Shown in pieces: positions 936 to 41,394 of a stretch of 64,000 nucleotides of DNA. The notes beneath the pieces are model-generated. The model worked only from the letters and a program-made list of their open reading frames with translations, ran no database searches and had not been told where the DNA came from. The stretch is taken from contig NZ_KB731324.1 of NCBI RefSeq assembly GCF_000353285.1, forward strand, positions 948,577-1,012,576, read 5' to 3'. The stretch's first letter is position 1. Each line of letters opens with the position of its first letter. A program made the position numbers and the translations under genes. Origin of the DNA: Leptolyngbya boryana PCC 6306 (lineage in GTDB: Bacteria > Cyanobacteriota > Cyanobacteriia > Leptolyngbyales > Leptolyngbyaceae).

Positions 936-938
936 CCT

Positions 939-2473: not shown

Positions 2474-3456
2474 AAACTTCTGTTTTAATCAATAACTATA
2501 ATTATCAGACCTATGTGATTGATGCGATCGAGAGCGTTCTCAATCAATCAGCCCAAGCCGATGAAATCATTATTGTAGATGATTGCTCAACCGATCAATC
2601 TGCCCAAGTCTTACAAGATTTTCTAAATTCAAAGTCCCCCATTCTGGGAGATTTAGGGGGCACGATTCCCTCTAATCGAAGCCCAAATATCAATCTCATC
2701 TTAAAAAAGAAAAACGAAGGACAACTTGCAGCATTTCAAGACGGATTCAACGCTGCCACAGGTGAGCTTATTTTCTTCTTAGACGCAGACGACGTATACC
2801 AAGAAACCTATATCGAAACCGTTCTAAACTTTTACCAAAATCATCCAGCTTGTGACTTTCTATTTACCAGTTCAGAACTTTTTGGTAACGAAGAAAGAAT
2901 TGCAACTTGTTACACCCACACTCGTGATCTTGGCTATTCAAAAATCAGCACCCTATATCGAAGAACTTGGATTGGACATCGCACTTCCACCCTTTCGATG
3001 AAGCGGCATGTTCTCGAAGCAATCTTTCCCATTCCTTACTTAGAAGATTGGCGAATTCGAGCCGATGACTGTGTAACTTATGGAACATCGATCGCGAATG
3101 CCCACAAATTTTACCTCAATCAACCCCTCGTAAAATATCGAGTTCATGGCAATAATGGGTACTACGGACGCTTAAAAACACGATCGCCCGAATATTTTCA
3201 ACAGTATGAACAAGCGATCGAGCGTTTGTTCAAATTCTGGATTAAAAAATTCAATTACTCCGAAGACATTGATCAATTTGCAGGTGAGGAGTTCCGTTCA
3301 ATTCCTCACCCAACTCAACAGGAATTTGATACGTTTCAATCCATCATTCGGTGTACAAACCTGCCTAAAATTCGCAAGGGATTCATGTTAGTGTTGGCGT
3401 ATCTCTATTTCCTTCGTCACCGCAATCCTTCCGAATGTTCACCCCAAAGGAACTGA
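2470..3456 (+). CDS. Family 2 glycosyltransferase with a repeat-derived insertion
   Basis: 328 aa, overlapping the previous stop as ATGA. Classic GT2 order: SVLINNYNYQTYV at the N-terminus, IIVDDCSTDQS near residue 38, and FFLDADD with the DxD near residue 105. Between the first motif block and KKKNEGQL there are about 18 extra residues (SKSPILGDLGG and following) encoded by a palindromic genomic repeat (see 2631-2672). Reading frame and catalytic motifs remain intact, so the insertion seems tolerated in a surface loop. Substrate unknown; it is probably an inverting transferase for the surface glycan. Confidence 0.85.
   Translation: MKTSVLINNYNYQTYVIDAIESVLNQSAQADEIIIVDDCSTDQSAQVLQDFLNSKSPILGDLGGTIPSNRSPNINLILKKKNEGQLAAFQDGFNAATGELIFFLDADDVYQETYIETVLNFYQNHPACDFLFTSSELFGNEERIATCYTHTRDLGYSKISTLYRRTWIGHRTSTLSMKRHVLEAIFPIPYLEDWRIRADDCVTYGTSIANAHKFYLNQPLVKYRVHGNNGYYGRLKTRSPEYFQQYEQAIERLFKFWIKKFNYSEDIDQFAGEEFRSIPHPTQQEFDTFQSIIRCTNLPKIRKGFMLVLAYLYFLRHRNPSECSPQRN
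2631..2672. repeat. Palindromic repeat inserted in frame in a coding region
   Basis: The stretch begins AAAGTCCCCCATTCTGGG and continues to ATTTAGGGGGC. It is an imperfect hairpin-forming sequence of the AAGTCCCCC...GGGGGATTTAGGGGGC type that I recall as a dispersed intergenic repeat in many cyanobacteria. Here it sits inside the GT2 gene and keeps the frame open. The outer CCCCC and GGGGG blocks are clear. Confidence 0.6.
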
Positions 3457-5036
3457 TACTGCGCCCGAAACCCGCTTCACTCTCAGATTTCGACCTTACT
3501 CAGCCCTCAACTCGCATCATCGCCTGTCCTGATCCTCCCATCGAAGCTGTTCGAGCAGGTCACGCGATCGCAATTCCTGACAACACTTTCAACATTCGTC
3601 CCCTCCTCAAACAGCTTCCATTCCAGCCCGATCTCGTCAGTCTGTCTGCCCGTGTCATGACCTTTCTGCCGCGCGGACTCCACACGTTGAACTGTCCAAC
3701 TGTAATGAAATTGGGAGACACTTTTCACTTAGGCGATGGTGGGTTGAGTCGAATGGTGAGCTATTGCAAGCATCTCAATTGTGATTACCACTGGACATAT
3801 CAAAGCCCTCAGCATCTTCACTTCTTTACTGAGGCAGGACTAAGAAATGTATTTTGGTTGCCTGGGTCGATCGTCATTGATCCATATATTCCTCAACTCT
3901 CAGAGAAGCAGTACGCCGTTATTTTTCGCGGTTCTGAATCAGAATTACACCAGTATCGAACCCATATTTTGAATGTAGTCCGAACATCTGGAATTGACAT
4001 AGATGTATGCCAAAAAGACTACACTAGCTCTCTAGAAGACTATGCAAAAGCACGGATTGTTATCAATAGTAGTTTGAATGGAGATCTGAATCGGCGTGTG
4101 TTTGAAGTGCTGATGGCAGGAGGTTTTTTACTCACCGATCGCATTCGTCCGCAGTCTGGACTCTTTGAACTCTTTGAAGAAGGCAAGCATTTTGAATGCT
4201 ACGGCAATGAGACAGAACTCATCGAGAAAATTCAGTTCTACCTTGCTCGTCCTCAAAAAGCGAACCAAATTGCCCAAGCTGGACATGAGCATTTTCTCAC
4301 TCATTACTCTCAACCAACAGTCCAGCAACAACTATATCGATCGATTTTCAACAAGCTCGAATTTCCCAAACACGATCGACGATTGCACACCTCAACCCGG
4401 CTTCAAACTCGTCTCAAACTCTACGAACTCATTCAAGAACTTCATCGCATCTATCCTAAACTCAAGATTCTGTGTTGGCGAACTTGCTCAACGATCGTCG
4501 CAGACCTTGCAGACTTACCTCGTGCTGAACTGACTCACGTTGTTGACTCTGAGCAACTCGTACAGACCCAAACAGACTATCTACAGGCAGGGCTGCAAGT
4601 CAATGTACAAGATCTGCAGCCTGATCCAGGTGGAGAATTTCAAATTGTAGTCATGAGTGGAGTGGATCGTGCCTTAGAGCAGCAGATTCAACAGAGTACA
4701 AATCTACTTTGCGATCGCGGTTTTTTCATCATTGTTCAGCCCTTTAACTTCTTTGCAATCCCACAATTGAATCAATGGATGAGAAATCAGAACTGTATTC
4801 CAATTCAGTTATCCATTCGCTTGTTCAATCAGAACTATGATCTAGCACTTGAACAGCATGGACTACTTTATCAAAAACTTTCTGCTCAAGCTGATTCAGC
4901 AAGGTTGCAGGACAAAGCAGACTTAGTAATAACTGAGATTCGAGCCAGTAGAATAATAAAAACTCAGATCAAAACGGCTCCAATCATTCGTTGCATTCTA
5001 TCTCTAATTCGGAAGCTGCGATCGCGCTTTCGCTAG
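3435..5036 (+). CDS. CgeB/GT4-like glycosyltransferase with an extra C-terminal domain
   Basis: 533 aa, starting 22 bases inside the previous gene. The first ~300 residues look like a GT-B enzyme of the CgeB/GT4-like type: the core ends with RRVFEVLMAGGFLLTDRI, a helix with ELFEEGKHF, then ELIEKIQFYLARP and a HEHFLTHYS tail, the usual C-terminal pattern for these proteins. The last ~190 residues form a second domain with a Rossmann-like run (LKILCWRTCSTIVADL, then EFQIVVMSGVDRAL) that loosely resembles a degenerate methyltransferase, without a recognisable SAM loop. The combination is unusual and the second function is unknown. Confidence 0.65.
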   Translation: MFTPKELILRPKPASLSDFDLTQPSTRIIACPDPPIEAVRAGHAIAIPDNTFNIRPLLKQLPFQPDLVSLSARVMTFLPRGLHTLNCPTVMKLGDTFHLGDGGLSRMVSYCKHLNCDYHWTYQSPQHLHFFTEAGLRNVFWLPGSIVIDPYIPQLSEKQYAVIFRGSESELHQYRTHILNVVRTSGIDIDVCQKDYTSSLEDYAKARIVINSSLNGDLNRRVFEVLMAGGFLLTDRIRPQSGLFELFEEGKHFECYGNETELIEKIQFYLARPQKANQIAQAGHEHFLTHYSQPTVQQQLYRSIFNKLEFPKHDRRLHTSTRLQTRLKLYELIQELHRIYPKLKILCWRTCSTIVADLADLPRAELTHVVDSEQLVQTQTDYLQAGLQVNVQDLQPDPGGEFQIVVMSGVDRALEQQIQQSTNLLCDRGFFIIVQPFNFFAIPQLNQWMRNQNCIPIQLSIRLFNQNYDLALEQHGLLYQKLSAQADSARLQDKADLVITEIRASRIIKTQIKTAPIIRCILSLIRKLRSRFR

Positions 5037-5062
5037 TTCTGAAGTCATCGTCACACCTGTCA

Positions 5063-6595
5063 ATGAACATAAAATCGATCCAACCCTTTAGGCTTCTTGT
5101 TGTGATCCTATTGCTGCTTGGTATTTTTTTCCGATTTGCGTCCCTCGGAGAACGACCTTACTGGCATGATGAGGCACATACGTTACTGAGATCATCGGGC
5201 TATACGCTCACAGAAATTACAACTCAAATTTTTAATACTCAAATCCTCGATCGCGATCAGGTGCTCAAATTTCAACAGCTTTCATCTGAGAAAACTGAAT
5301 TTGATGTTGTACGCTCTTTAGCAACTGAAGAACCGCATCGAGCACCTCTGTTTTATACACTTTTACATTATTGGATGCGATGGTTTGGCAACGATCTCAC
5401 TTCACTCAGAATATTACCAAGCCTGCTAAGCTTGCTCGTTTTTCCAGCGATCTACTGGCTCTGTCTTGAGTTATTTGGTTTGCCATCTACTGGATGGATC
5501 GCGATCGCACTGGTCAGTGTTTCGCCATTTCAGGTTTACTATGCTCAAGAAGTCAGAGAATATTCTCTGTGGGCGGCAACGACTTTGTTTACTTCCGCTG
5601 CATATCTTCATGCAATGCGATCTCCAAAAAAATTAGCTTGGAGCCTATATAGCGTTTCAATCATTCTATCGCTATATACGTCTCTGTTATCGCTTCTGAT
5701 TTGGGTAGGTCATTGCATTCATGCGATCGCATCTCAGAAAGTGAAACTGACGAAACCTATGAGTGCTTTTCTCAAAGCTTCATTCCTTGGATTCCTTGGA
5801 TATTTACCTTGGCTATTCTTTGTAGCCGTGAACCTGTCACAGGTCGAAAGAAGCAATGCTTGGATGTTTCAACCGACTCCGCTCCACACGTTGCTAGAGA
5901 GTTGGGTGACGAATTATCAATTTATCTTTCTGAAACGCAGTCTAGCGGGTTCTTGGAGCTTTTTATTTACAACTGCGATCGGGCTTCTCACCTTTCTTTC
6001 CGCGCGATCGCTGATTCTCCGTACCCGAAAAGCAACCTGGGTATTGATTGCACTTTTAGTTTTACCGTTACTCATTACTTTTGTTGTTCCTGACTTGATC
6101 TGGGGCGGATTACGATCGACGAATGGGCGCTACTTTGTCCCGTGCTATTTAGGGATTCAGCTTGCAGTTGCACATCTGTTTGCAACTCAGCTAAAAAATG
6201 GCTCAAATCTTCTACAGAAAGCATTTTGGCGGTTCGCATTGGTCAGTATTCTTACCGCAGGTGTGCTTTCATGTACGGTGCAGATGTTTCAAAATCGCCT
6301 GAGTGAAGATTTAGCGATCGCATCGATGATCAATCAAGCTGAAAATGCGATCGTCGTTAGTGCAGAAGAGTCTTATCAGGGAGGCGGCACGATCGGCGAT
6401 ATCCTAACATTAAGCCATCTCGTTCAGCCGAGTACAAAATTCCAGCTTGCGATTCGACATCAAGTTCCATCGCTTCCAAATCAACCGAATTTATATCTCT
6501 ATAAACCTCTTACCTACCTAAAACAGAACCTCCAGCAAACCTATACACTCCAACCTATCTACAAAGATAAGCTCTTTCAACTTCTTCCCAAATGA
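5063..6595 (+). CDS. GT39/ArnT-like membrane glycosyltransferase
   Basis: 510 aa from the ATG at 5063, 26 bases after the previous stop; an upstream start at 4991 would overlap the neighbour. The protein starts with a membrane helix (FRLLVVILLLLGIFFRF) followed by the conserved extracytoplasmic motif RPYWHDEA, whose Asp-Glu pair is the catalytic mark of PMT/ArnT-type transferases. About ten further hydrophobic segments follow. The family uses lipid-linked sugars and acts on the periplasmic face. It may decorate the glycan or a lipid carrier. The stop overlaps the next start as ATGA. Confidence 0.8.
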   Translation: MNIKSIQPFRLLVVILLLLGIFFRFASLGERPYWHDEAHTLLRSSGYTLTEITTQIFNTQILDRDQVLKFQQLSSEKTEFDVVRSLATEEPHRAPLFYTLLHYWMRWFGNDLTSLRILPSLLSLLVFPAIYWLCLELFGLPSTGWIAIALVSVSPFQVYYAQEVREYSLWAATTLFTSAAYLHAMRSPKKLAWSLYSVSIILSLYTSLLSLLIWVGHCIHAIASQKVKLTKPMSAFLKASFLGFLGYLPWLFFVAVNLSQVERSNAWMFQPTPLHTLLESWVTNYQFIFLKRSLAGSWSFLFTTAIGLLTFLSARSLILRTRKATWVLIALLVLPLLITFVVPDLIWGGLRSTNGRYFVPCYLGIQLAVAHLFATQLKNGSNLLQKAFWRFALVSILTAGVLSCTVQMFQNRLSEDLAIASMINQAENAIVVSAEESYQGGGTIGDILTLSHLVQPSTKFQLAIRHQVPSLPNQPNLYLYKPLTYLKQNLQQTYTLQPIYKDKLFQLLPK

Positions 6596-7797
6596 AGCGA
6601 ATTATCACCTGCCAAGGAAGTATCCAACTCATTGCTGCATTATCAGCGCTCTTGCATCGAGGGCAGTTGAGAGACTCCCAAAATTACCTCGTCATCTATG
6701 AGCTTTATGCTCCTGAACAGCAGCATTATGAGTTTGCAACCTTTATCGAGCAGATGGCGAGATCGATTTGTGAATGGGAGGAGATCGTCTATCTCACCCC
6801 TGATCAACTGAATGCAATTGGTCACAAACTCGACTCGACTCGACCCGCTCAAATTTATAGCCAAGTTCATCGCTGGCTCGGACTCGATCGAGCCGATGAA
6901 ATCTATCTCTGTCGCAACTGGCAATTGACGAATCAGCTTTTACTCAATGCCTATCCCTCTGCTTATCGAGTCTGCTACGGTGACGGCATCGGGCTTTATT
7001 TCTCAGAGCATTCAGCCGTCGTTCGTCGCCCGTTTACGCCGCCTCCAACCCGTGATCAAATTTTCGATTGGACTTGGTGGAAACTACGATCGCTCTGGCA
7101 TCGAATTCGTGAACGCCTGAAGTTAAAAACAAAGCTCTACTCTCTGCCTTTTGATATTGGCTACTTTGTGCTGCCTGACATTTTTGGAGAAACGCCACCC
7201 ATGCCAAGCGTCAAGCTTGCGCCAGTGCAGCTCCTCAACTTGTTTGAGCAATTCACCTCATTTGTCGATGACGATCGCGTAGCTGAAATTCAATCCATCA
7301 TTCAAGATTCGCCAGTTTCAATTCTACTCACTTCCAACTTTTCAGAAGGAGAACGCTTACCTCAAGCTCGTGAAATTCACGCCTACTATGAATTTCTTAG
7401 CTCACACAGCATTCCACCCGATAGTGTCTTGATCATCAAACCTCATCCTAGAGATGATCCCAATAAGATTAAAGAATTGCAGAAACTATGTTCTCATTTA
7501 TATCGTGAAGTCATTCTCCTGACTGATTCAAATCTGTTCTTTTTACCCTTTGAAATTTTCTTTCTCAAAGCTTTTACTCAAAAAAAGCAGAACATTCGTA
7601 TCTTTGCCGTCAGTTCTGCTTTTTTGTCCTTACAGCTTCTCTTCGATCTACCAAGCTTCATTGGATTCGGAGCAGATTTAACTACACAATCGTTTTATCC
7701 AGACTTTGTGGATGCCCGCTTAGAGCATGAACAAACCTTACATGAAGCTTGCTATCGTTTACAGTCCGCTTTGAATTCTCAACAAGACGTGCTATGA
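6592..7797 (+). CDS. Polysialyltransferase-family-like glycosyltransferase
   Basis: 401 aa. The N-terminus (MKRIITCQGSIQLIAALSAL) and the late motif IIKPHPRDD resemble the alpha-2,8-polysialyltransferase/GT52-type proteins: GT-B fold, with a KPHP nucleotide-sugar motif. No sialic-acid synthesis gene (neuA, neuB) is visible here, so the donor need not be CMP-sialic acid. It overlaps the upstream gene by ATGA and belongs to the same operon. Recognised from pattern only; it could be another GT-B capsule-type transferase. Confidence 0.6.
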   Translation: MKRIITCQGSIQLIAALSALLHRGQLRDSQNYLVIYELYAPEQQHYEFATFIEQMARSICEWEEIVYLTPDQLNAIGHKLDSTRPAQIYSQVHRWLGLDRADEIYLCRNWQLTNQLLLNAYPSAYRVCYGDGIGLYFSEHSAVVRRPFTPPPTRDQIFDWTWWKLRSLWHRIRERLKLKTKLYSLPFDIGYFVLPDIFGETPPMPSVKLAPVQLLNLFEQFTSFVDDDRVAEIQSIIQDSPVSILLTSNFSEGERLPQAREIHAYYEFLSSHSIPPDSVLIIKPHPRDDPNKIKELQKLCSHLYREVILLTDSNLFFLPFEIFFLKAFTQKKQNIRIFAVSSAFLSLQLLFDLPSFIGFGADLTTQSFYPDFVDARLEHEQTLHEACYRLQSALNSQQDVL

Positions 7798-7825
7798 ATC
7801 GAACACCAGGTTTTGTGCGATCGCT

Positions 7826-8641
7826 ATGATTAGTATTGTGACTCCTGTTTACAATGGAGAGCAGTTCATTGAGTCCTGTCTTCAAACCGTCATTGCTCAA
7901 GCGTGCGATGAAATTGAGCATCTCATTATTGATGGCGGTTCAACAGATAGCACAGTTAGTATCATTCAAAAATATGCGAACTGCTATTCTCACATTCGCT
8001 GGATCTCTGAACCGGATCGAGGTCAATCCGATGCCATGAACAAAGGCATTCAACTTGCAAAAGGCAATGTGCTGACGTTTCTCAATGTTGATGACTACTA
8101 TGAGCTAGATACTCTAAATCAAGTTAATCAGCGCTTCAAAACGCTACCTGAACCGAGCTTTATCGTGGGAAACTGTCGAATCTGGAACGATCACGGAGAA
8201 GTGATTGATATCAATAAGCCTTCTAAGTTGCGCTTGTTTGATCTCGTTCTCGGGTTGAATATCAATCCCTATCCTTGTAATCCTTGCGCTTATTTTTATC
8301 ATCGATCGCTGCATGAGCGAGTTGGAAATTATGCGATCGAGGATCACTATTCGATGGATCTAGATTTCATTCTCCGCGTGGTTCAAGTGGCTCACGTTTA
8401 CTATGTTGATGAAATCTGGGGGAACTATCGCAGAATTGCAGGAACGAAAACGTTTATTGATATGGAAAGTGGAGAGTGCGATCGCCGAGTTCGACAAATT
8501 CTAAGAAAATATCGACAGCATCTGACTCCAGTTGAGCAATTTCAGTGGTACATCTGGAAAATTTGGCATCAATGCCGCACGATTGTCTTTTCAGCTTTAA
8601 GACTCTGTTTTAGAACGATTAAACGGTTCTTTCGTAGATAA
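7826..8641 (+). CDS. Family 2 glycosyltransferase
   Basis: 271 aa. Standard GT2 signature: ISIVTPVYNGEQFIESCL at the N-terminus, LIIDGGSTDST near residue 34, PDRGQSDAMNKG and FLNVDDYYE (DxD-equivalent) near residue 93. The WISEPDRGQSDAMNKG version is typical of WcaA/WaaE-like transferases of O-antigen and capsule loci. It is the last gene of the operon, 28 bases after the polysialyltransferase-like gene and just before a strong hairpin terminator. Confidence 0.85.
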   Translation: MISIVTPVYNGEQFIESCLQTVIAQACDEIEHLIIDGGSTDSTVSIIQKYANCYSHIRWISEPDRGQSDAMNKGIQLAKGNVLTFLNVDDYYELDTLNQVNQRFKTLPEPSFIVGNCRIWNDHGEVIDINKPSKLRLFDLVLGLNINPYPCNPCAYFYHRSLHERVGNYAIEDHYSMDLDFILRVVQVAHVYYVDEIWGNYRRIAGTKTFIDMESGECDRRVRQILRKYRQHLTPVEQFQWYIWKIWHQCRTIVFSALRLCFRTIKRFFRR

Positions 8642-10528: not shown

Positions 10529-12628
10529 TTATCCTCGATTCGGTTTGAGGTATTGCATTAAGGCTTCGGTATAGCGAGTCGTTCCGTGTTCAGTGGTTGG
10601 GGCAAGTTTTCGCGATCGTGCTAAGCAAGCCTGTGCCTCTTTGAGATTGTGCATCATTGCAAATGTCCAGGCTAATTCTGCGTAAATTTCGGCGCTGAGA
10701 GCCGGATTGTGTTTTGCCAATTTCAGCACATGTCGATAGAGATCGATCGCGGTCGTAAAGTCCCCTTTGCATTGCAGCAAATCAGCATGGCGGCAATGAT
10801 TTTTTATGGCAAGTAATGCCTCATCAGGAGGGGGAGTCTCGAACTCTGCGATCGCATCTGCTAGGCTTCCGCGCCATTGATTATACAAAATTAGGGTATA
10901 GCGCTCATTGCCTGTAGTTTGATCAGATGGGCATGGGGTTCCATACATTGCGATCGCTTGTGTGAAATTGTCTTCTTGAAGCGCGATCGCGAAATTGGTT
11001 CTCGCTGCCCAATAGCTCGGAGCAATTTGTAATGCTTTCTGAAAAAAATCTGCTGATTTGGAATGCTGGTTTAGACGATGCTGAATTACACCTAAATTGT
11101 TATATGCTTCTGCACTAGCAGCATCGAAGATCAAAATTGCATGAAATAGTGTTTCAGCTTGAGCGAGTTGATCGCTCTGATAGCACCTAATTGCGCGTTG
11201 AAATAGAGCATCTAAAGTCGTGAGTCTACTATCTTGAATTTGCTCGAATCTTTCTTTGGCTCTTTGTTTTGCTGCTTGAATGAAGGTTTGAAGTTCATGA
11301 ACGAGCCACCGTTGTTCAGTGGGTGAGAGGTATTGACCAAACTGATATACTTCTTGGGTGCGCATTCTGATGACACCGACACTCTCTCCTTTACGAGTTT
11401 TTTCGAGATGAATGTCTTCAATTTCCTCAAGAATGAATGAGATCTTTTGGTAGAACTCGAAGCGTTTTAGCATTCCTGCCAGTATGAGCGTGTAATCATT
11501 AACGCTCAAAACTGTGGGTTTGATTAAAGTCTGGAGATCTCTCGCAAAGCAGATTCCGGCTAGGGCTGTGACACAAGGGAAGGTAACTAAGATTAAACCG
11601 TAGTAGCCAACTTCTGACATGTTTAATCGACTGACAGCCACGATCCGAAAGAGAATGAATGCCGTGAGTAAGTACAGAAGAACAAGTCCGATTCTGATCC
11701 GGATTTTATCGGCTTTGCTCGATTGAAAGCTTTGCCCTGAAAAGTGGATGTGTAAGGCACGATCGCTCTTAATTAACGAGACTTTTGTATTGCGCGGACG
11801 TTGCGGAGAGGGACTCGATACAAATTCTTCTTTCGGATTGCGACCTTGCAAAGCCGACAGTGCTAAAGCCGCAGAATTAAATCGGTCTTCCTCTGCTGCT
11901 TCAATACAGCGCTTTAACCAACGACTAAACTCAGCAGAAATCCTCAAATTCGGCGGAATTTGTAACTGGAGATCATCTGATGTTTGTAACTGATTGGGGT
12001 CTTTGCCTGTGAGTAAATAAAGTAGGGTTGTTCCCAAAGCATAAAGGTCTGTCGCGCAAGTTGCTTTTCCGCGAAACTGTTCCGGAGCCATGTAGCCCAG
12101 TGTGCCGACAACCGTGCTGCCCCCGGTTACAGTTTGGCGATAGGTATCTTGAACGGCTCCAAAATCAACAAGATAGATATTGCCTTCTCGATCGCGCAAA
12201 ATATTCTGGGGTTTGATATCTCGATGGAGAATGGGCGGTAGAAAAGTTTGCAGATAAACCAGGATATCGAGCAGTTGAAACGCGATCGCTTTCGTTGTGT
12301 CTTCGTCTGGTCGCCAACCTTTTTGAATCCATTGGGCTAGTGTTTTCCCAGGTGCGAGAGCTTGCACAATGCAGAATAAACGATCGTCTTCGGTATCAAT
12401 TTCAAACGAATCGATATAGCGAGGAATGGCAGGATGATTCAGTTGCTTGAGAACTTTCACTTCTCGCTCAAACAAATCGAGTGTTTTCCAATCCGACGTT
12501 TGACGCAGTGAAACAACTTTCAGTGCAACATACTGCTGAGTGTGCAGATCCTCAGCTTTATAGGTCGTTCCAATGCCGCCTTGACCTAATGTTTCTAAGA
12601 TTTTGTAGTGCGAATGAATGATATCCAT
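10529..12628 (-). CDS. Ser/Thr protein kinase with TM segments and TPR repeats
   Basis: 699 aa from the ATG at 12628, 4 bases after the preceding kinase's stop; a longer version would need a TTG start inside that gene. Kinase motifs: GQGGIGTTY glycine loop, VALK, HRDIKPQN, VDFGAVQ, GYMAPEQFRG. A central hydrophobic region (two helices around LVLLYLLTAFILFRI and YGLILVTFPCVTALAG) anchors it, then a short domain and at least three TPR-like units (AEAYNNLGVIQHRLNQHSK, YWAARTNFAIALQ, AEIYAELAWTFAM). This is the usual cyanobacterial Hanks-type kinase plus C-terminal sensor or scaffold layout. Substrates are unknown; translational coupling to the ankyrin kinase suggests they act together. Confidence 0.88.
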   Translation of the reverse strand: MDIIHSHYKILETLGQGGIGTTYKAEDLHTQQYVALKVVSLRQTSDWKTLDLFEREVKVLKQLNHPAIPRYIDSFEIDTEDDRLFCIVQALAPGKTLAQWIQKGWRPDEDTTKAIAFQLLDILVYLQTFLPPILHRDIKPQNILRDREGNIYLVDFGAVQDTYRQTVTGGSTVVGTLGYMAPEQFRGKATCATDLYALGTTLLYLLTGKDPNQLQTSDDLQLQIPPNLRISAEFSRWLKRCIEAAEEDRFNSAALALSALQGRNPKEEFVSSPSPQRPRNTKVSLIKSDRALHIHFSGQSFQSSKADKIRIRIGLVLLYLLTAFILFRIVAVSRLNMSEVGYYGLILVTFPCVTALAGICFARDLQTLIKPTVLSVNDYTLILAGMLKRFEFYQKISFILEEIEDIHLEKTRKGESVGVIRMRTQEVYQFGQYLSPTEQRWLVHELQTFIQAAKQRAKERFEQIQDSRLTTLDALFQRAIRCYQSDQLAQAETLFHAILIFDAASAEAYNNLGVIQHRLNQHSKSADFFQKALQIAPSYWAARTNFAIALQEDNFTQAIAMYGTPCPSDQTTGNERYTLILYNQWRGSLADAIAEFETPPPDEALLAIKNHCRHADLLQCKGDFTTAIDLYRHVLKLAKHNPALSAEIYAELAWTFAMMHNLKEAQACLARSRKLAPTTEHGTTRYTEALMQYLKPNRG

Positions 12629-12632
12629 AGGT

Positions 12633-14597
12633 TTAACGGTTTCGATTGTACTCACTGTTTCGCTGACTCGGTGCTGAGCCAATGCCCATGAGTTTGTTGC
12701 TTAGTTCTGAATCATCGCGAGGCTGACGAGGATATGCATTTTCGCTTTGCCAGTTTCTCTCAGCTTGTTCTTGCTGCCGAATCCTTTCTTCTTCTCTTCG
12801 TCGGGATGGGTTAACGCCCGCTCGTTCATTGAATGCCAGCCGGATTGCTTCTCGCATGGGTCGATTCTTGCCTCCCATGCTCGCTCGTTTCAAAGGAGTG
12901 ATCCCTTGTAGATTCGACTGATGAATGTTAGCTCCAACCTGTAACAACTTCCAAATCGTCTGTACATCTTGATCAGACTCCACTCGGTCTACCAGAAAAT
13001 TTAGTAAGGTATTGCCACCGCGATCGAGGGCATCCGCATAGGGTAGGAGTTCCAAAATTTCTTCAGGAGTTAGAAACTTGAGTTCATGGAAATGGATTTG
13101 ATTGAGCATGTCTGGAGTGAGCTTTTGCTGTTTCGCAATCATTGAGCGAAACACACCTGCATCTGAATTTGCCACAGCTCTCTGAAAGACTTCTGAGAGA
13201 TTGACATAAGTACTAACATCTCCTTCTGTAAGGCTCTGCACCAGATTGAGCCAGCCTCGTTGGCTTGCAGTTTGAATCAGAGTTTCGATGAGTTGTTGCT
13301 TCTGATCTTTAATCTGCGATCTCCGACTGATGTGTTCTACAAACAGTTGAGCATTGGCTTCAGAATTGATGTAATCGATCGCGGTTTTGCCTTTTTTATC
13401 TTTCAGGCTGATATCGATCTGATTCAGCGCGAGAATTGCTTTCAGCGCTTCTGGCTTGCGTTGTGCAGCCTCATGAAGGGGAGTTTGACCTTGATGATCG
13501 CGATACTGCAAGTTGCCGCCTTTTGCGACGATTTGTTGGATTGAGTCAGCTTCTCCTAAAGCGATCGCTTGATAGATCAAAGTTCTTCCTTCAATGTCTG
13601 TCGCATTTGGGTCTCCACCTTTACTTAAATACTCTTTGATGGATAAATCTCGATGATCGATAGAAGTATAAGCAGATTGAGTGAGTCCAACTTTATTGAT
13701 AATTGCGTAGCGATAGTGATCGGTAACGACTAAAGCAATGAGCGTTAAGGCACTCATTGCCCCGATTCCGATGGAGAGCTTTGAAGATTGTTTGGGTGGA
13801 GGTTGGAGTTGAGAGATCGCGATTTCTGCTGATGCAAACCGATCTTTCGGCGCGGGTTCTAAAATCTTTTCTAACCAATCTGCAAAGTGCGGTGAGAGTT
13901 GAAGTTGCGATCGAAACTCAATTCTCAACTTTTGAACAGGTAAATCGGCAGGCGATCGACGAGTTAGTAAAAAGAGTAATGTTGTGCCTAAACCGTATAA
14001 ATCAGTTGCCGCAACGACTTGACCACGAAACTGTTCAGGAGCCATATAGCCGTAAGTTCCGACGACTGTACTACCCTGCATGAATGTATTGTGATACGTA
14101 CTTCCAACTGAGCCAAAATCAACTAGAAAAATTTGACCATCAGCGCGACGAATTAGATTTTGCGGCTTGATATCGCGATGAAAGACAGGTGGATTCAGGG
14201 TGTGGAGATAATTGAGAATCTCTAAGACTTGTAGCGCGATCGCTCGAATCTCTGCTTCTGTCCCGTGCCAACCTTGCTGTACCCAATCAAAAAGAGATTT
14301 GCCCTTGGCGAGTTCTTGAACGATGTAGAAATTGCGGTCACGCTCAGTCTCGACGACGAAATACTCTAAATATTTGGGAATGTTCGGATGATTGAACTGC
14401 TGAAGAATCTCAGCTTCACGTTCAAATAATTCGATGGTTTTCCAGTTAACGGCTTGTCGTAAAACAAGCGTTTTTAAGGCAACTTGTTTCTGTGTCGTCT
14501 GATCCTTTGCCAGATAGGTGATACCTGTGTTGCCTTCACCCAAGCGTCCCAAGATTTGATAACGCCGCTGAATAATATCACCAGACTGATGAACCAT
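12633..14597 (-). CDS. Ser/Thr protein kinase with ankyrin-repeat C-terminus
   Basis: 654 aa. Kinase domain, residues ~10-270: GEGNTGITY loop, VALK, HRDIKPQN, VDFGSVG, GYMAPEQFRG. One transmembrane helix follows (LSIGIGAMSALTLIALVV, ~280-300), then ankyrin-type units such as DPNATDIEGRTLIYQAIALG, DHQGQTPLHEAAQ and KDKKGKTAIDYI, later NLQGITPLKRAS. Ankyrin repeats bind proteins, so the external or C-terminal side probably senses a partner. The C-terminus is charged and Gln/Arg-rich. It is the first gene of a kinase pair and starts after a hairpin downstream of hpnH. Confidence 0.88.
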   Translation of the reverse strand: MVHQSGDIIQRRYQILGRLGEGNTGITYLAKDQTTQKQVALKTLVLRQAVNWKTIELFEREAEILQQFNHPNIPKYLEYFVVETERDRNFYIVQELAKGKSLFDWVQQGWHGTEAEIRAIALQVLEILNYLHTLNPPVFHRDIKPQNLIRRADGQIFLVDFGSVGSTYHNTFMQGSTVVGTYGYMAPEQFRGQVVAATDLYGLGTTLLFLLTRRSPADLPVQKLRIEFRSQLQLSPHFADWLEKILEPAPKDRFASAEIAISQLQPPPKQSSKLSIGIGAMSALTLIALVVTDHYRYAIINKVGLTQSAYTSIDHRDLSIKEYLSKGGDPNATDIEGRTLIYQAIALGEADSIQQIVAKGGNLQYRDHQGQTPLHEAAQRKPEALKAILALNQIDISLKDKKGKTAIDYINSEANAQLFVEHISRRSQIKDQKQQLIETLIQTASQRGWLNLVQSLTEGDVSTYVNLSEVFQRAVANSDAGVFRSMIAKQQKLTPDMLNQIHFHELKFLTPEEILELLPYADALDRGGNTLLNFLVDRVESDQDVQTIWKLLQVGANIHQSNLQGITPLKRASMGGKNRPMREAIRLAFNERAGVNPSRRREEERIRQQEQAERNWQSENAYPRQPRDDSELSNKLMGIGSAPSQRNSEYNRNR

Positions 14598-30350: not shown

Positions 30351-30818
30351 CTAGCTATTGTCGCATTTTTTGACTAAGCAGAGACAGTTCACTCTTTCTC
30401 GGACGCAGTGGTATTCAATCTCCCATTGATGCTGATCGCGCAGCTTCTTGAACAAAGTCCCGCCCCAATGCTCGCTATGCTCTAAAGGATTCGGATACTC
30501 TTGTTCAACTTGATCGAGCAGGTCTTCTAGATCAAATGGTGAACCTTGATCCCAAATCCGAATCTCCAAGTGATCCGGATACAACCCGGCTTCTAGTTGA
30601 ATGAGCGTATGGAGCGGCAGAGCAGTATGGGCATGACGCACCGCATTCGTAAAGCCTTCAACTAAAGCAATCTGACCTTGCAGCCAAGCTGCTTGAGAAA
30701 GCGGCGGTCGTCGGAATTGTTCAAACCAGCGGAGAATTTGAGCAATCGCAGTTAAATCGCTTTGCATCATCAATCGATCAAAGTAAATCGCACCCCCCAT
30801 CGTCTTTAAATGCGTCAT
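30351..30818 (-). CDS. RsbW/SpoIIAB-like anti-sigma serine kinase (HATPase)
   Basis: 155 aa from ATG 30818, preceded by an AGG-type ribosome site; a GTG at 30848 would overlap the upstream gene. GHKL ATPase motifs: N-box VEGFTNAVRHAH, G1 box IWDQGSPFDLE, and a weak, unusual G2 region (HWGGTLFKKL). The family phosphorylates a Ser in STAS-domain partners. It follows the STAS-sugar transferase gene by 19 bases on the same strand, so that STAS domain is a natural candidate partner. Two more module members, a free STAS protein and a PP2C phosphatase, lie at 32596-34147. Confidence 0.82.
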   Translation of the reverse strand: MTHLKTMGGAIYFDRLMMQSDLTAIAQILRWFEQFRRPPLSQAAWLQGQIALVEGFTNAVRHAHTALPLHTLIQLEAGLYPDHLEIRIWDQGSPFDLEDLLDQVEQEYPNPLEHSEHWGGTLFKKLRDQHQWEIEYHCVRERVNCLCLVKKCDNS

Positions 30819-30837
30819 AGCTGATACCTGTTCAAGA

Positions 30838-31824
30838 TTAAAATGCACTGCCTTTCTTTAGTAGAACAGCTACTGTTTTCAAGATCAGTTGTAAATCATA
30901 TTTCAAGCTCCAGCGTTGCTGATAGCGTAGATCAAGCTGAATTACCTCCTCAAAGTTGCGGATCTGCGATCGACCATGCACCTGCCACTCACCTGTAATT
31001 CCCGGTTTCACATCAAGGCGCTGCCAATTTGGAATTTCATACCGCTCAACCTCTTCGGGTAAGGGTGGACGAGTCCCTACTAGACTCATTTCACCCCGCA
31101 ACACATTCCAGAACTGCGGTAGCTCATCTAAGCTTGTTTTTCGCAAAAACTGTCCGACCTTAGTAATTCTCGGATCTTTCGCATTCTTGAAAAATGCGCC
31201 TTCATTCTCATTTTGAACTTGAGATTTTAATTGTTCTGCGTCAGTGACCATTGAACGAAACTTCCAAACGCGAAAGTGCCGTCCCAAATGTCCACAGCGA
31301 GTTTGAGAAAATAAAACCGAACCCGGACTATCTAGCTTAATCGCGATCGCAATCGGCACAAACACAAGCGCTGTAATGGTCAGCCCAACTAATGCTCCAG
31401 CAATATCAATAAGTCGTTTGGTACGAGACTGAATGGATGGATGTGTCGATTCGACCGCAGGCTGAATCAGAACAGGGTCTAAAGGAGCAGTTCCAGGCTC
31501 GATAGTAAATTGTCGATCGAGATCCGCTAAAGCGAGAATTGCTAAAATCTCAGGTCGAACGCTCCAAAGTGCCATCTCAATCTGACGGCTTTTCGTTGCT
31601 TTAAGGCACATCACTAAAGCACCGATCGCGCTACTATCAATGAAAGTCGTCTGCGCAAAATCAAGAATCAGCTTTGTGACAGTTGGATGGGCTTCGATCA
31701 ATTCCCGACATTTTGTCCGGAAAGCAACTGCTTCGACAACAGTGAGCATGGACGGAAGTTTAATCAGATACGTACTATCTGTTTGGGTGACGACAAATTC
31801 AATAGGAGAGCGCTGTTGAACCAT
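30838..31824 (-). CDS. STAS domain fused to a polyprenyl-phosphate sugar transferase
   Basis: 328 aa from ATG 31824, chosen because GAGG lies 5 bases upstream; an ATG at 31866 has no ribosome site. Residues ~5-105 form a STAS domain with TTFIDSSAIGALVMCL, where Ser64 sits at the position phosphorylated in SpoIIAA and RsbV. Residues ~135-328 are a bacterial sugar transferase (WcaJ/PglC-like core): RLIDIAGALVGL membrane helix, VWKFRSM, SLDELPQFWNVLRGEMSLVGTRP and GITGEWQVHGRS. Such enzymes load the first sugar phosphate on undecaprenyl phosphate and start exopolysaccharide synthesis. The fusion suggests this step is gated by partner switching. Confidence 0.85.
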   Translation of the reverse strand: MVQQRSPIEFVVTQTDSTYLIKLPSMLTVVEAVAFRTKCRELIEAHPTVTKLILDFAQTTFIDSSAIGALVMCLKATKSRQIEMALWSVRPEILAILALADLDRQFTIEPGTAPLDPVLIQPAVESTHPSIQSRTKRLIDIAGALVGLTITALVFVPIAIAIKLDSPGSVLFSQTRCGHLGRHFRVWKFRSMVTDAEQLKSQVQNENEGAFFKNAKDPRITKVGQFLRKTSLDELPQFWNVLRGEMSLVGTRPPLPEEVERYEIPNWQRLDVKPGITGEWQVHGRSQIRNFEEVIQLDLRYQQRWSLKYDLQLILKTVAVLLKKGSAF

Positions 31825-32595
31825 ATTGACCTCAGAGATTAGGCGACGATTAGGGGACAGCAACATGGCAAGTCAAGCCAGAAATCCTGCCTCGCTAACC
31901 GATCATCCGTGTCGCAAAAACGATGATCGAATCATGCCTGTCATTGAATAGGCGACGGATCTAGAAAATCGACGATGCACCCGATTAGATGAAACCGTTT
32001 GAAAATCGACACTCAACTGATAACAGAGTGCCTGTGTTGAGCGAATCGATAACACTCTAGATATTTCTCTCGCTTGTGCGACCCCAAATCGTGCGCGATC
32101 GCGAGTTCAATTTGGGGATCATCCATATGCTTGTGGAATCGCACACTCCTTTAAAGTTCTGTCTAAATTAGCTTCGTAAGTTCCATTAAATCAATCGCCT
32201 TCTGGAATCGAAAGTTTAATGCGATCGCCAAGAGATCGGTAAACTCCAAGCTTTCAAAGGATAGAGTAGCAATCCAGATAGCAGTCATCCCGTGACTAAA
32301 CTCACGTTAATAACGTTCCAAGAAGCAGGCGAGAACGTGTTTTTCATCATTGCGAGGTTCTCAGCTTGAGCATTCTTTAAGGTTTTCAAATAGATCTCTG
32401 AATTTACACCTAAAAGATAGTGGCTATTTTCTCGATCGATATAGGTTGAAATTACGGAATCGCAATCAAATCCGTCTCCGTACGCGGCAGTAAAAATCTG
32501 AAATTTTACATAAGCAGCTTCTTCAGCGATCAGGGCTATATGATCTAGGTTTTTCCTATCTGATCCATCACCTATTCAGTGAGTTAGTCATCATT
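31825..32595. other. 771-base divergent intergenic region of the partner-switching module
   Basis: No gene was recognised. It must hold the divergent promoters of the STAS-sugar transferase and the free STAS gene. Visible structure: CCCCAAAT (32082-32089) pairs with ATTTGGGG (32110-32117) around a HIP1 palindrome, and a small AT hairpin lies at about 32491-32510 (GTAAAAATCTGAAATTTTAC). The length is large for this compact genome and leaves room for an untranslated leader or small RNA, but nothing matches a family I know. Confidence 0.4.
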
Positions 32596-32928
32596 ATGAG
32601 TTTACCTGTCAAAGTTATTCAACTCAGTGGCATTCTGAGTCACACTCAGGCAAAACAGTTTAGACAAGAAATCGCTGATCTGATTGAAGCAGGCACGGTC
32701 GAGGTGTTGATCGATTTTGAGCAAGTGACTTTTATGGATAGTGCTGGATTGGGAGTGCTGGTCAGTATCCTGAAGCTTGTGAATGGAGCAGATGGAACCG
32801 TTTCACTCTGCTCCATTCGACAAGAGGTCAAGATGCTGCTGGACTTAGCAGATGTGGCTCAGTTCTTTGAAATTTTTCCCAATCAAGAAGCGTTTTACCA
32901 AGCCAAAGCAAACTATTCCCCAATCTGA
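32596..32928 (+). CDS. STAS-domain anti-sigma-factor antagonist (RsbV-like)
   Basis: 110 aa, a single STAS domain. VTFMDSAGLGVLVSIL carries the D-S-x-G-L-G signature; Ser49 matches the phosphorylated Ser of SpoIIAA/RsbV. In partner switching the dephosphorylated STAS protein binds the RsbW-type kinase and releases the kinase's other partner. It is convergent with the receiver-PP2C phosphatase gene (41-base gap) that would dephosphorylate it. Resembles the HmpV component of the Nostoc hormogonium switch (from memory). Confidence 0.88.
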   Translation: MSLPVKVIQLSGILSHTQAKQFRQEIADLIEAGTVEVLIDFEQVTFMDSAGLGVLVSILKLVNGADGTVSLCSIRQEVKMLLDLADVAQFFEIFPNQEAFYQAKANYSPI

Positions 32929-32931
32929 TAT

Positions 32932-32964
32932 AGAACTCCAGAGGCTTCAAAAACTTGGAGTTCT
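32932..32964. terminator. Two-way hairpin between the STAS and phosphatase genes
   Basis: AGAACTCCA (32932-32940) pairs with TGGAGTTCT (32956-32964), 9 bp, in the 40-base gap between two convergent stops. T-tracts are weak on both strands. Confidence 0.5.
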
Positions 32965-32968
32965 TGCG

Positions 32969-34147
32969 TTACTTCAATTTGATCTGAAGCAACGAGCAAT
33001 CATCATCAAAATCTTTGCTTCCTGTGAGATCTTGAACCGTCTGAATGATAGCTTCTGAGTTATCGATCGAGTCTGAGCGGTGACACTGATTCACGACATC
33101 AATAAAGCTATTGAGATTCCAGATTTCGCCATTCGGCTGCATGAATTCATAGATGCCATCACTAAAAAGGTAGAGAGTACTTTCTTGCTCTACTCTGAAG
33201 AATTGAGTTTTGTACTTAGTGTCTGGAAACATCCCGATCGGAGTTCCGGGTGTTCTGAGACGATGTACTTGATGATGAGGAGATTGCCCAGACAGCACCA
33301 GTGCAGGAGGATGCCCTGCACTCGCGTACATCAGAAGTTGCTTGGAATAGTTGTAGACTCCATACCAGATTGTGAAATAGCGCTCCGGTGTGTCAGCGTC
33401 CCAATTGTCTGCCTGCCCGGAAGCAAAAGCTTCGTTTAAGGCAGTCAGCACTAATCCGGGTTGATAGAAGTTAGTTCCAGGTAAGATTTGAGCGCGGAGA
33501 ATATTCTGGATCGACACAGACACCAATGCGGCTCCTAAGCCATGTCCAGAGACATCCAGTAAGTACATTGCTAGAAAATCAGCATCGAGCCAATGATAGT
33601 CAAAGCAGTCTCCGCCAAGCTGTCGAGACGGAAGAAACTGCGATCGCGTCATGACCTTATCATTCATCGGCGTGGGTAAGAGCGATCGCACATAGTCCGC
33701 TGCTTCAGCAATTTCTGACTCTAAGCGCTCTTGCTGAACTTTTAATGCTTGAGTGAGTCTCCGCTGTTCTTGAAATGCCTGGTAAACGCGCAGCCCTGCG
33801 CGTAATCTAGCACTGAGTTCACTGATCTGGAACGGCTTTGAGAGAAAATCATTGGCTCCTTGATCGAGAGCTTTAATGTGATGTTCTGCTGATGGCTGAG
33901 CATTGAGTAGAACAACATAAATATCCGACCAATTTGGATCAGCTTTTAAGGCTCGACAGACTGAAACCCCATCAATTCCGGGTAAATCCCAGTTGCAGAG
34001 AATCAGTGCAGGACAAATCGAGGAAATGAGTGTTAACCCTTCTTCTCCACTGGTTGCCTCAAAGACTTCATAACCTTGATTTTGCAGAAGTTTTTTTAGA
34101 AGTTTACGGATTAATTGATCATCGTCAATCACTAGGATTCGGAACAT
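32969..34147 (-). CDS. Receiver-PP2C phosphatase (RsbU/SpoIIE-like) with a degenerate receiver
   Basis: 392 aa. Receiver domain 1-120, a coiled linker ~125-160 (QEQRRLTQALKVQQERLES), then a SpoIIE/PP2C domain with GGDCFDYHWL, LLDVSGHGLGAALVS and LFSDGIYEF, holding the metal-binding Asp residues. The receiver keeps the acidic pocket (Asp8, Asp9) and Lys104, but the phosphoacceptor position is Asn52 (LILCNWDLPGIDG) and the usual Thr/Ser is Asn82 (VVLLNAQ). It should therefore not be controlled by normal aspartyl phosphorylation. The phosphatase domain looks active and would dephosphorylate a STAS partner. Confidence 0.87.
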   Translation of the reverse strand: MFRILVIDDDQLIRKLLKKLLQNQGYEVFEATSGEEGLTLISSICPALILCNWDLPGIDGVSVCRALKADPNWSDIYVVLLNAQPSAEHHIKALDQGANDFLSKPFQISELSARLRAGLRVYQAFQEQRRLTQALKVQQERLESEIAEAADYVRSLLPTPMNDKVMTRSQFLPSRQLGGDCFDYHWLDADFLAMYLLDVSGHGLGAALVSVSIQNILRAQILPGTNFYQPGLVLTALNEAFASGQADNWDADTPERYFTIWYGVYNYSKQLLMYASAGHPPALVLSGQSPHHQVHRLRTPGTPIGMFPDTKYKTQFFRVEQESTLYLFSDGIYEFMQPNGEIWNLNSFIDVVNQCHRSDSIDNSEAIIQTVQDLTGSKDFDDDCSLLQIKLK

Positions 34148-39174: not shown

Positions 39175-41394
39175 ATGGCAACAAAATTTCCAAAGTTTAG
39201 CCAAGACATTGCGCAAGATCCAACGACACGCCGCATCTGGTATGGAATTGCGAGCGCGCACGATTTTGAAACGCATGATGGCATGACTGAGGAGAAGCTA
39301 TATCAAAAGATATTTGCGACTCATTTTGGTCATGTTGCAATCATTTTCCTCTGGGCATCTAGTCTGTTGTTCCACGTTGCTTGGCAGGGCAACTTTCCTC
39401 AGTGGATCAAAGACCCGATCCATCTTCGCCCCATTGCTCACGCGATTTGGGATCCTCAATTTGGTAAACCTGCGGTCGAAGCGTTTAGCCAAGGTGGAGC
39501 GAGCTATCCAGTCAACATCGCCTACTCCGGCGTGTATCACTGGTGGTATACGATCGGTATGAGAACCAATGCGGATCTCTATCAGGGATCTATTTTTCTA
39601 CTTTTGCTAGCAGCACTGTTTTTATTTGCAGGATGGCTGCACCTGCAACCGAAATTTCGCCCGAGCCTAGCTTGGTTCAAAAATGCGGAATCTCGCCTAA
39701 ATCACCATTTAGCTGGCTTATTTGGTGTCAGTTCTCTCGCTTGGGCAGGACATCTCATTCACGTTGCTATCCCTGAATCTCGCGGTCAGCATGTGGGTTG
39801 GGACAACTTCCTCACAACCCTGCCGCACCCGGCTGGTCTTAGACCCTTCTTTACTGGAGACTGGGGCGTGTATGCTCAAGATCCAGATACAGCAGAGCAT
39901 ATTTTTAATAGCTCGGACGGTGCGGGAACTGCAATTCTCACATTTCTCGGAGGTTTTCATCCTCAAACCGAATCGCTGTGGCTGACCGATATGGCGCATC
40001 ATCATTTAGCGATCGCCGTTATCTTTATTATTGCGGGGCATATGTACCGCACAAATTTTGGCATTGGTCATAGCATTAAGGACATTCTCAATGCTCGCGG
40101 CAAAGGAATTCAAGGACAAGGAAACCTTCCACACCAAGGACTGTACGATACTTACAATAATTCGCTGCATTTTCAGCTTGGAATCCATTTAGCTGCTTTA
40201 GGAACAGCGCTATCTGTGGTCGCACAGCATATGTATGCAATGCCACCCTATGCGTTTATCTCCAAAGACTTCACGACGCAGGCAGCACTGTATACACACC
40301 ATCAGTATCTAGCAGGGTTCTTTCTCATCGGTGCATTTGCTCATGGTGCAATCTTCTGGGTTCGTGACTATGATCCAGACAACAATCAAAATAATGTACT
40401 AGCTCGATTACTAGGTCATAAAGAAGCGATCATTTCGCATTTGAGTTGGGTTTCTTTGTTCCTTGGTTTTCATACCTTAGGGCTGTATGTTCACAATGAT
40501 GTACAGGTTGCCTTTGGTGTACCAGAAAAGCAGATTCTGATTGAGCCTGTGTTTGCTCAGTGGATTCAAGCGTCTCATGGTAAAGCGCTGTATGGTTTCA
40601 ATACGTTACTGTCGAACGCGGATAGCTTGGCAACGACGGCTTGGCCGAATCACGGTAATGTCTGGTTACCCGGTTGGCTCGATGCGATCAACAGTGGGAC
40701 AAATTCGTTGTTCTTAACGATTGGACCGGGTGACTTCTTAGTGCATCATGCGATCGCATTAGGATTACATGTGACGACGCTCATCTGTCTGAAAGGTGCG
40801 CTCGATGCTCGTGGAAGTAAGCTAATGCCAGACAAGAAAGATTTTGGCTTTAACTTCCCCTGCGATGGTCCTGGACGCGGTGGTACTTGTCAGATTGCTT
40901 CTTGGGAACAGTCTTTCTACTTAGCAACTTTCTGGATGTTGAACACGATCGGCTGGGTGACTTTCTACTGGCACTGGAAACATTTAGCGATCTGGTCAGG
41001 CAATGTCGCACAGTTTAATGAAAGCTCAACTTATCTGATGGGTTGGCTGCGCGATTATCTCTGGCAGTACTCGGCTCCGCTGATCAATGGTTATAACGTT
41101 TACGGAACGAGTAATTTGTCTGTTTGGGCTTGGATGTTCCTGTTTGGTCATTTAGTGTGGGCAACTGGCTTTATGTTTTTGATTAGCTGGCGTGGCTATT
41201 GGCAAGAGCTGATTGAAACATTAGTCTGGGCACATGAACGCACACCGCTGGCAAATTTAGTTCGATTCAAAGATAAACCTGTTGCTTTATCGATCGTTCA
41301 AGGTTGGCTGGTTGGCTTAGTTCACTTTACGGTCGGCTATATCCTGACGTATGCTGCTTTCTTGATTGCAGCGACAACCGGTAAATTTAGCTGA
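39175..41394 (+). CDS. psaB: Photosystem I P700 apoprotein A2 (lone, divergent PsaB paralogue)
   Basis: 739 aa, normal PsaB length, collinear from [20 protein letters not shown] to [14 protein letters not shown]. The FX iron-sulfur ligands are present ([12 protein letters not shown], Cys563 and Cys572) and the C-terminal half is strongly conserved. Differences from ordinary PsaB, as remembered, cluster in the N-terminal third ([41 protein letters not shown]) and in a longer loop ([16 protein letters not shown]). No psaA lies upstream, unlike the standard psaAB operon, so this is probably an alternative PsaB (PsaB2-like) that pairs with the main PsaA. It is preceded by a PAS-Crp regulator and closed by a strong terminator. 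Confidence 0.93.

Follow-up and report, generated by a model that had tools for sequence, protein, structure and literature searches.

A kinase, a Ser-bearing STAS protein and a PP2C phosphatase are common to the partner switches RsbU/RsbV/RsbW and SpoIIE/SpoIIAA/SpoIIAB. The same components occur in a four-gene cluster of Leptolyngbya boryana PCC 6306 (genome 7.26 Mb), within a stretch of 64,000 nucleotides of contig NZ_KB731324.1 (positions 948,577 to 1,012,576; the window), where a predicted serine kinase (K), a STAS domain fused to a polyprenyl-phosphate sugar-1-phosphate transferase (T), a free STAS protein (S) and a receiver-containing phosphatase (PP) are encoded together. K and the STAS domains match the classical systems in fold and sequence, whereas here one STAS is part of an enzyme and, by our alignment made by eye, has no acidic kinase-contact residue, and no sigma factor was found beside it (none among 24 window proteins scanned with Pfam, a part of the window's open reading frames (ORFs); one could lie elsewhere). 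We lean towards the reading that K binds and phosphorylates the STAS domain of T and gates polysaccharide initiation after translation.

In Synechocystis, Slr1861, which acts with Ssr1600 and has SigC as its output, and PmgA are likewise cyanobacterial RsbW-like kinases acting on a Ser-Ser STAS protein; by description the STAS of the Slr1861 system is free-standing, which sets it apart from K and T (PMC12329169). In Nostoc punctiforme HmpU/HmpV/HmpW, a phosphatase, a STAS protein and a kinase compared here by description only, the STAS protein is the output and the passages compared describe no fused transferase (PMC8256260, PMC6495340). The STAS Ser of Vibrio fischeri SypE/SypA controls polysaccharide-dependent biofilm below the level of transcription, the unphosphorylated form being active (PMC10120452); SypA is a free STAS protein, whereas the window STAS is part of an enzyme. 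SiaC is also active when unphosphorylated (PMC8457831). SiaABCD, HsbA-HsbD and BgrV-BgrR are partner switches with an enzyme output, a diguanylate cyclase, and act in trans on cyclic di-GMP synthesis, whereas the action proposed here is in cis and on a sugar transferase (PMC8457831, PMC5085249). An enzyme in place of a sigma factor, which an earlier note on this DNA had inferred as the output here, has precedents in SiaD, HsbD and BgrR. A fusion like T has been described in all4160 of Anabaena PCC 7120, which has the same architecture, an N-terminal STAS domain and a glycosyltransferase (PMC8256260), and is among the genes needed for heterocyst envelope polysaccharide synthesis (PMC4390870).

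The fusion (all4160) and the kinase type are already known, and so are partner switches that act on enzymes. Among the open-access papers listed by our searches, none described a kinase paired with a STAS-transferase and widely kept as here, or a switch placed in cis with an initiating transferase. To our knowledge, the post-translational starting and stopping of capsule, sheath and slime synthesis in cyanobacteria is poorly understood. The T-K pair offers a specific two-protein hypothesis, with one residue, Ser78 of T, to mutate, in which phosphorylation of a protein may directly turn the making of slime or capsule on and off. If this is true, STAS switches gain a cis-fused output, an initiating transferase, and the STAS domain on the heterocyst envelope transferase could be explained.

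Domains and conserved residues of the kinase and the fusion

All four genes that the earlier note had recognised within 3.8 kb are present as ORFs, and their Pfam domains agree (Table 1). S lies on the opposite strand from T, K and PP, and the locus is therefore a gene cluster with one likely T-K operon and not a four-gene operon. The spacing of 19 bases proposed between T and the kinase gene holds for the ATG start of K at 30818, and the longest K ORF, from GTG at 30848, overlaps T by 11 bases.

Table 1 Features of the cluster, in window coordinates
Feature	Position	Strand	Details
K, RsbW/SpoIIAB-like serine kinase (predicted)	30351..30848	-	165 amino acids from GTG; 155 from ATG at 30818
T, STAS domain + polyprenyl-phosphate sugar-1-phosphate transferase	30838..31866	-	342 amino acids; possible start M15, 31824
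STAS domain of T, residues 25-124	31495..31794	-	Pfam STAS 1.1e-14
Ser78 of T, candidate phosphorylation site	31633..31635	-	Ser in 112/112 non-redundant fusions
Bac_transf catalytic domain of T, residues 150-336, including D247-E248	30859..31419	-	Pfam 1.2e-66
S, free STAS protein	32596..32928	+	110 amino acids; Pfam STAS 2.5e-19; SpoIIAA 1th8_B phmmer 1.1e-13
Ser49 of S, aligned with Ser of SpoIIAA	32740..32742	+	Alignment
PP, response-regulator receiver + PP2C (SpoIIE) phosphatase	32969..34147	-	392 amino acids; Pfam Response_reg 2e-25, SpoIIE 1.4e-41

K matches HATPase_c_2 (Pfam, 3.3e-15), and SpoIIAB and RsbW are its best profile matches as well as the best Foldseek matches of its predicted structure (predicted local distance difference test (pLDDT) 86.8; SpoIIAB 1til at 2.6e-8, RsbW 6m37 at 3.9e-6); the NCBIfam rsbW equivalogs match far under their cut-offs. 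The N-box residues E64 and N68 and the Gly of the D-x-G motif (G102) are kept in 41/41 T-linked kinases, and D100 in 40/41. By this domain and these motifs K is of the RsbW/SpoIIAB type, with a predicted kinase activity on STAS.

In the T model (mean pLDDT 76), a STAS part (residues 19-127) is joined through a linker of low confidence (127-139) and a long helix (148-179) to the catalytic part. The STAS part superimposes on TM1442 (1vc1; Z 17.9, root-mean-square deviation (rmsd) 1.9 over 106) and on SpoIIAA (1thn; Z 16.6, rmsd 2.2 over 106), and the catalytic part on PglC (8e37; Z 17.2, rmsd 3.3 over 176) and WbaP (8t53; Z 17.2, rmsd 2.3 over 154). Designed armadillo repeat proteins, which phmmer also matched to the STAS part, were set aside as spurious, the matches being short and repeated. 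T scores 297.2 bits against NCBIfam EPS_sugtrans, barely above the cut-off of 295.55 bits. D247-E248 is DE in 112/112 fusions, and we take it to be the catalytic dyad of the Bac_transf family; with this dyad, the domain and the PglC-like fold, T belongs with the monotopic initiating transferases PglC and WbaP.

Both T and S have a STAS fold with a target Ser before helix 2, as in RsbV and SpoIIAA. The 112 fusions of our non-redundant set comprise 39 that are K-linked (K within 700 bases), 70 that are not and 3 that are uncallable. Across them, column 78 of T is always Ser, with an entropy of 0 that is the lowest among 108 STAS columns; at column 79, 110 fusions have Ser and the other 2 have Cys. 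The first Ser of such a pair, S59, is modelled as controlling binding in Synechocystis Ssr1600 (PMC12329169). In S, the motif 'mdsag' aligns with 'mdssg' of SpoIIAA (phmmer), and the SpoIIAA chain of 1tid/1til has 'mdasg' there. The SpoIIAA Ser aligned with Ser49 of S is presumably the one that is phosphorylated. Both phosphorylatable Ser residues named in the earlier note are thus present and Ser49 was numbered correctly; its 'Ser64' was counted from M15 and is Ser78 in the 342-residue ORF.

Distribution of the pair and its neighbours

A scan of named genomes returned at least 588 relatives, of which the best 80 loci were kept. Among these 80, the fusion is present in 45 (L001-L045), the remaining loci matching mainly the catalytic part; 44 of the 45 are cyanobacterial and one is from Rhabdochromatium, and K lies just downstream in 12/45. 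We also drew 146 genomes evenly across the phylum, calling a fusion at E <=1e-90 with a match over the STAS part and a kinase at E <=1e-12, with adjacency read from tables and G097 left out because a contig end cuts its fusion. This draw contains 47 fusions in 41 genomes. K adjoins T in 22 of the 47, downstream on the same strand in 21 and on the opposite strand in G109. A fusion that is widespread without the kinase gene, which the earlier note had named as evidence against its switch, is seen as far as adjacency goes: K does not adjoin 25/47 fusions, and 19 of these 25 belong to family f7, which its tree position marks as Nostocaceae. The same holds for the window's order, sampled as 42 genomes of one family, where K adjoins 7 of 22 fusions, lies apart in 13 and is uncallable near contig ends in 2. 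Within the window's genus, K adjoins T in the window and in 5/7 other genomes searched, the other 2 again being uncallable near contig ends.

Each of the 8 genomes with solitary fusions that we tested has at least two matches to PF13581 (RsbW-type), so a kinase encoded elsewhere could regulate them, and the search for a kinase-free genome with a fusion yielded none: G014, G076 and G093, in which the kinase alignment finds nothing at 1e-12, all carry two matches to PF13581 at <=1e-8. Where the pair is present, its genes are often close, with a gap of <=50 bases or an overlap in 29/40 T-linked kinases, and it is seen from Synechococcus and Cyanobium to Microcystis, Planktothrix and Nostoc-like genomes. 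Adjacency could reflect inherited gene order only, with no functional coupling, and type-A Nostocales (see below) and other f1 genera that have no K neighbour and a visibly unchanged T would fit this. Overlapping or nearly overlapping T-K genes are nevertheless kept in many families, and four f7 genomes (G024, G042, G078, G091) retain the pair beside an additional solitary T, which makes inherited order a very improbable explanation.

Other arrangements were also seen. L036, the fusion of the purple sulfur bacterium Rhabdochromatium marinum and possibly acquired from cyanobacteria, showed no neighbouring kinase. Two divergent fusions (L150:4617-5941, L151:4118-5519) have a free STAS gene directly beside them and no linked kinase, and in L010 (6998-8191) two tandem divergent RsbW-like kinases come straight after one fusion.

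S and PP are kept less widely than the pair. Within 5 kb of T, or less where the flank or contig ended, both are found near 10 of 39 T-K pairs, only one near 4 and neither near 25. The 10 pairs have three gene orders: PP> <S T> K> in the window, G162, G164 and G165; T> K> S> <PP in G024, G042 and G078; and T> K> PP> <S, with an 803-residue phosphatase, in L005, L009 and L040. Conservation of the four genes together, which the earlier note had suggested as a check, is seen in the same layout in 3/7 other genomes of the window's genus and does not extend to most T-K pairs; the genus also includes G168, where the stretch holds S without PP, and G163, where both are missing. A single origin of the four-gene cluster is not supported, as the PPs of the window's genus and those of the f7 T-K clusters form separate sets. 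From this distribution we regard T-K as the core and the phosphatase and free STAS as lineage-specific neighbours. The recurrence of the pair in many families, together with that of the four-gene layout in the genus, is more than chance.

The distribution of S also bears on a scheme running in the reverse direction, in which the STAS domain of T would be an input that titrates K from S or a sigma factor and so reports polysaccharide state to transcription. The nearest structural matches of the K model, SpoIIAB and RsbW, would suit this, as would the classical switch through which the RsbW-like Slr1861 of Synechocystis controls SigC (PMC12329169). A free STAS was not found within 5 kb in 27/39 T-K pairs, though S could lie elsewhere, and the 24 scanned proteins, a part of the window's ORFs, include no sigma factor, which again could lie elsewhere; we judge this scheme improbable.

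Kinase lineage and co-variation with the STAS domain

The T-linked kinases form a lineage largely of their own. In a tree of 78 kinase rows, the 41 T-linked rows, counting the second tandem kinase of L010, take 3 label changes against a shuffled mean of 25.4. Kinases of ordinary modules, in which K lies beside a PP2C gene and often S with no T, fall outside the T-linked group, including those from other genera of the window's family; the exceptions are L120, whose genome has T on another contig, and L157 and L133 (see below). On the T tree, the K labels take 6 changes against a shuffled mean of about 32, and the grouping is by eye similar to that of the kinase tree. As quick trees in which several branches are long and some forks open, both are unsure in detail. 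K is missing from two large groups of the T tree: a clade of 41 Nostocales rows (type A), and a group of 15 rows, 13 of them from the window's family. The Nostocales clade, by its inferred placement, is probably the all4160 type; it has no adjoining kinase in 41/41 rows, whereas the window T has K next door. In the window's family, the ordinary modules L219, L225, L221 and L226 consist of a very large PP2C-containing protein, K and a second PP2C protein of about 380 amino acids, with no transferase, and L219 and L225 also have a free STAS.

Across the 39 T-K pairs, the correlation of kinase distances is 0.83 with those of the STAS domain and 0.73 with those of the catalytic domain. The partial correlation of K with STAS given the catalytic part is 0.62, that of K with the catalytic part given STAS is 0.26, and 500 label permutations gave a maximum of 0.23. 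As a within-genome control, K was compared with a second, weaker-scoring kinase of the same genome, giving 0.62 versus 0.31 in 14 genomes and, in a set of 17 genomes partly the same as the 14, 0.63 versus 0.28. Given catalytic and other-kinase distances, the values are 0.56 versus 0.06 (14 genomes) and 0.61 versus 0.16 (17 genomes). The control kinases are grouped by score rather than by tree and the second set mixes subtypes, and because the bootstrap intervals of the K-control difference (-0.01 to 0.69 and -0.03 to 0.66) include zero, this comparison is suggestive and not firm. K thus tracks the STAS domain of T beyond the catalytic domain and, at a borderline level, more than same-genome control kinases do.

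Several observations weigh against action of K on this domain, in addition to the frequent solitary fusions and the intervals just given. The kinases of L157/G085 and L133/G089 fall in or beside the T-linked group, yet no fusion was found in their genomes. In SypA and SpoIIAA, acidic residues of the beta2-alpha1 loop contact the kinase (PMC10120452), and Asp at columns 42 and 44 of T, which we equate with these by an alignment made by eye, occurs in 0/112 fusions (column 42 is Ser in 58 and Thr in 50), which argues against SpoIIAA-like docking in every detail. The Arg partner of the acidic residue is by eye absent from K, ordinary-module and T-linked kinases alike, so a swap of this salt bridge between the two kinase groups is uninformative. 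Ser78 lies at a helix start and could therefore be structural. It is kept in 70/70 solitary T, and the median ratios of STAS to catalytic divergence are 2.72 and 3.18 in K-less fusions versus 3.13, in groups that differ in depth. A loss of Ser78 correlated with loss of K is accordingly rejected, and a relaxed STAS constraint in solitary T is not seen. By conservation alone, phosphorylation by K is indistinguishable from phosphorylation by another kinase and from a structural role.

Much of this would also be expected if the STAS domain served T structurally, for dimerisation or anchoring, with K, S and PP an ordinary switch that happens to lie beside it: solitary T retains its STAS under similar constraint, by our alignment no fusion has the usual acidic contact residue, and ordinary K-PP-S modules without T occur in the same family. 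Such a role is unlikely in our view, as the T-linked kinases are set apart from those of ordinary modules, 25/39 T-K pairs have neither S nor PP inside 5 kb, and K tracks the STAS domain.

A proposed cis switch and its link to polysaccharide

A kinase-STAS switch on the transferase, the central proposal of the earlier note, agrees with the fusion-linked kinase lineage, the intact motifs of T and K, the conserved Ser and the K-STAS co-variation, and is weakened by adjacency that is often missing. We infer a scheme in which T is a membrane-associated initiating sugar-phosphate transferase with an N-terminal STAS domain of the anti-sigma-antagonist type, and K is its dedicated serine kinase, which would bind the unphosphorylated STAS domain and phosphorylate Ser78. 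A PP2C phosphatase (PP here, others in other lineages) would reverse this, and the phosphorylation state would gate or localise the transferase and with it the first step of a polysaccharide. S may be a second substrate or competitor of K that feeds in the signal reaching the receiver of PP. By analogy with SypA and SiaC, our guess is that dephosphorylated T is the active form. More broadly, and with slightly less than even confidence, we propose a widespread cyanobacterial partner switch in cis, in which an RsbW-type kinase dedicated to the transferase STAS turns polysaccharide initiation on and off with no transcription factor between, solitary all4160-type relatives being under another kinase or freed for the heterocyst envelope.

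The genes next to the cluster are by eye leuD-like and pyrG-like, and the ORFs read include no polysaccharide genes adjoining the window T. Among six partly scanned loci in other lineages, glycosyltransferases lie beside T-K in three (Cyanobium L041, Synechococcus L042, Microcoleus L001), and the other three (L008, L014, L016) have an unrelated scanned neighbour (histidinol dehydrogenase, formyl transferase, exonuclease). With neighbours this mixed, it is mainly the enzyme family and all4160 that tie T to polysaccharide. In seven loci looked at (L001:5136-5804, L016:5242-5892, L235:5693-6343, L008, L010, L231, L239; Pfam run on three), a strongly conserved gene for a DUF3318 protein of 213-222 amino acids lies directly upstream of T; the copies are at least 75% identical to that of L001 and have H-E-x-x-R in sequence.

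Elsewhere in the window, about 22 kb from T, positions 42-8641 hold an ATP-binding cassette (ABC)-type surface polysaccharide region with a Wzt C-terminal domain, glycosyltransferases and a protein matching alpha-2,8-polysialyltransferase (PF07388, 4.4e-16). Two adjoining eukaryotic-type protein kinases, one with tetratricopeptide repeats and one with ankyrin repeats, are encoded on the minus strand at 10529-14597. At 39175-41394 there is a PsaB-like gene with a CRP-like regulator upstream and no psaA directly upstream, by eye possibly an extra solitary psaB copy.

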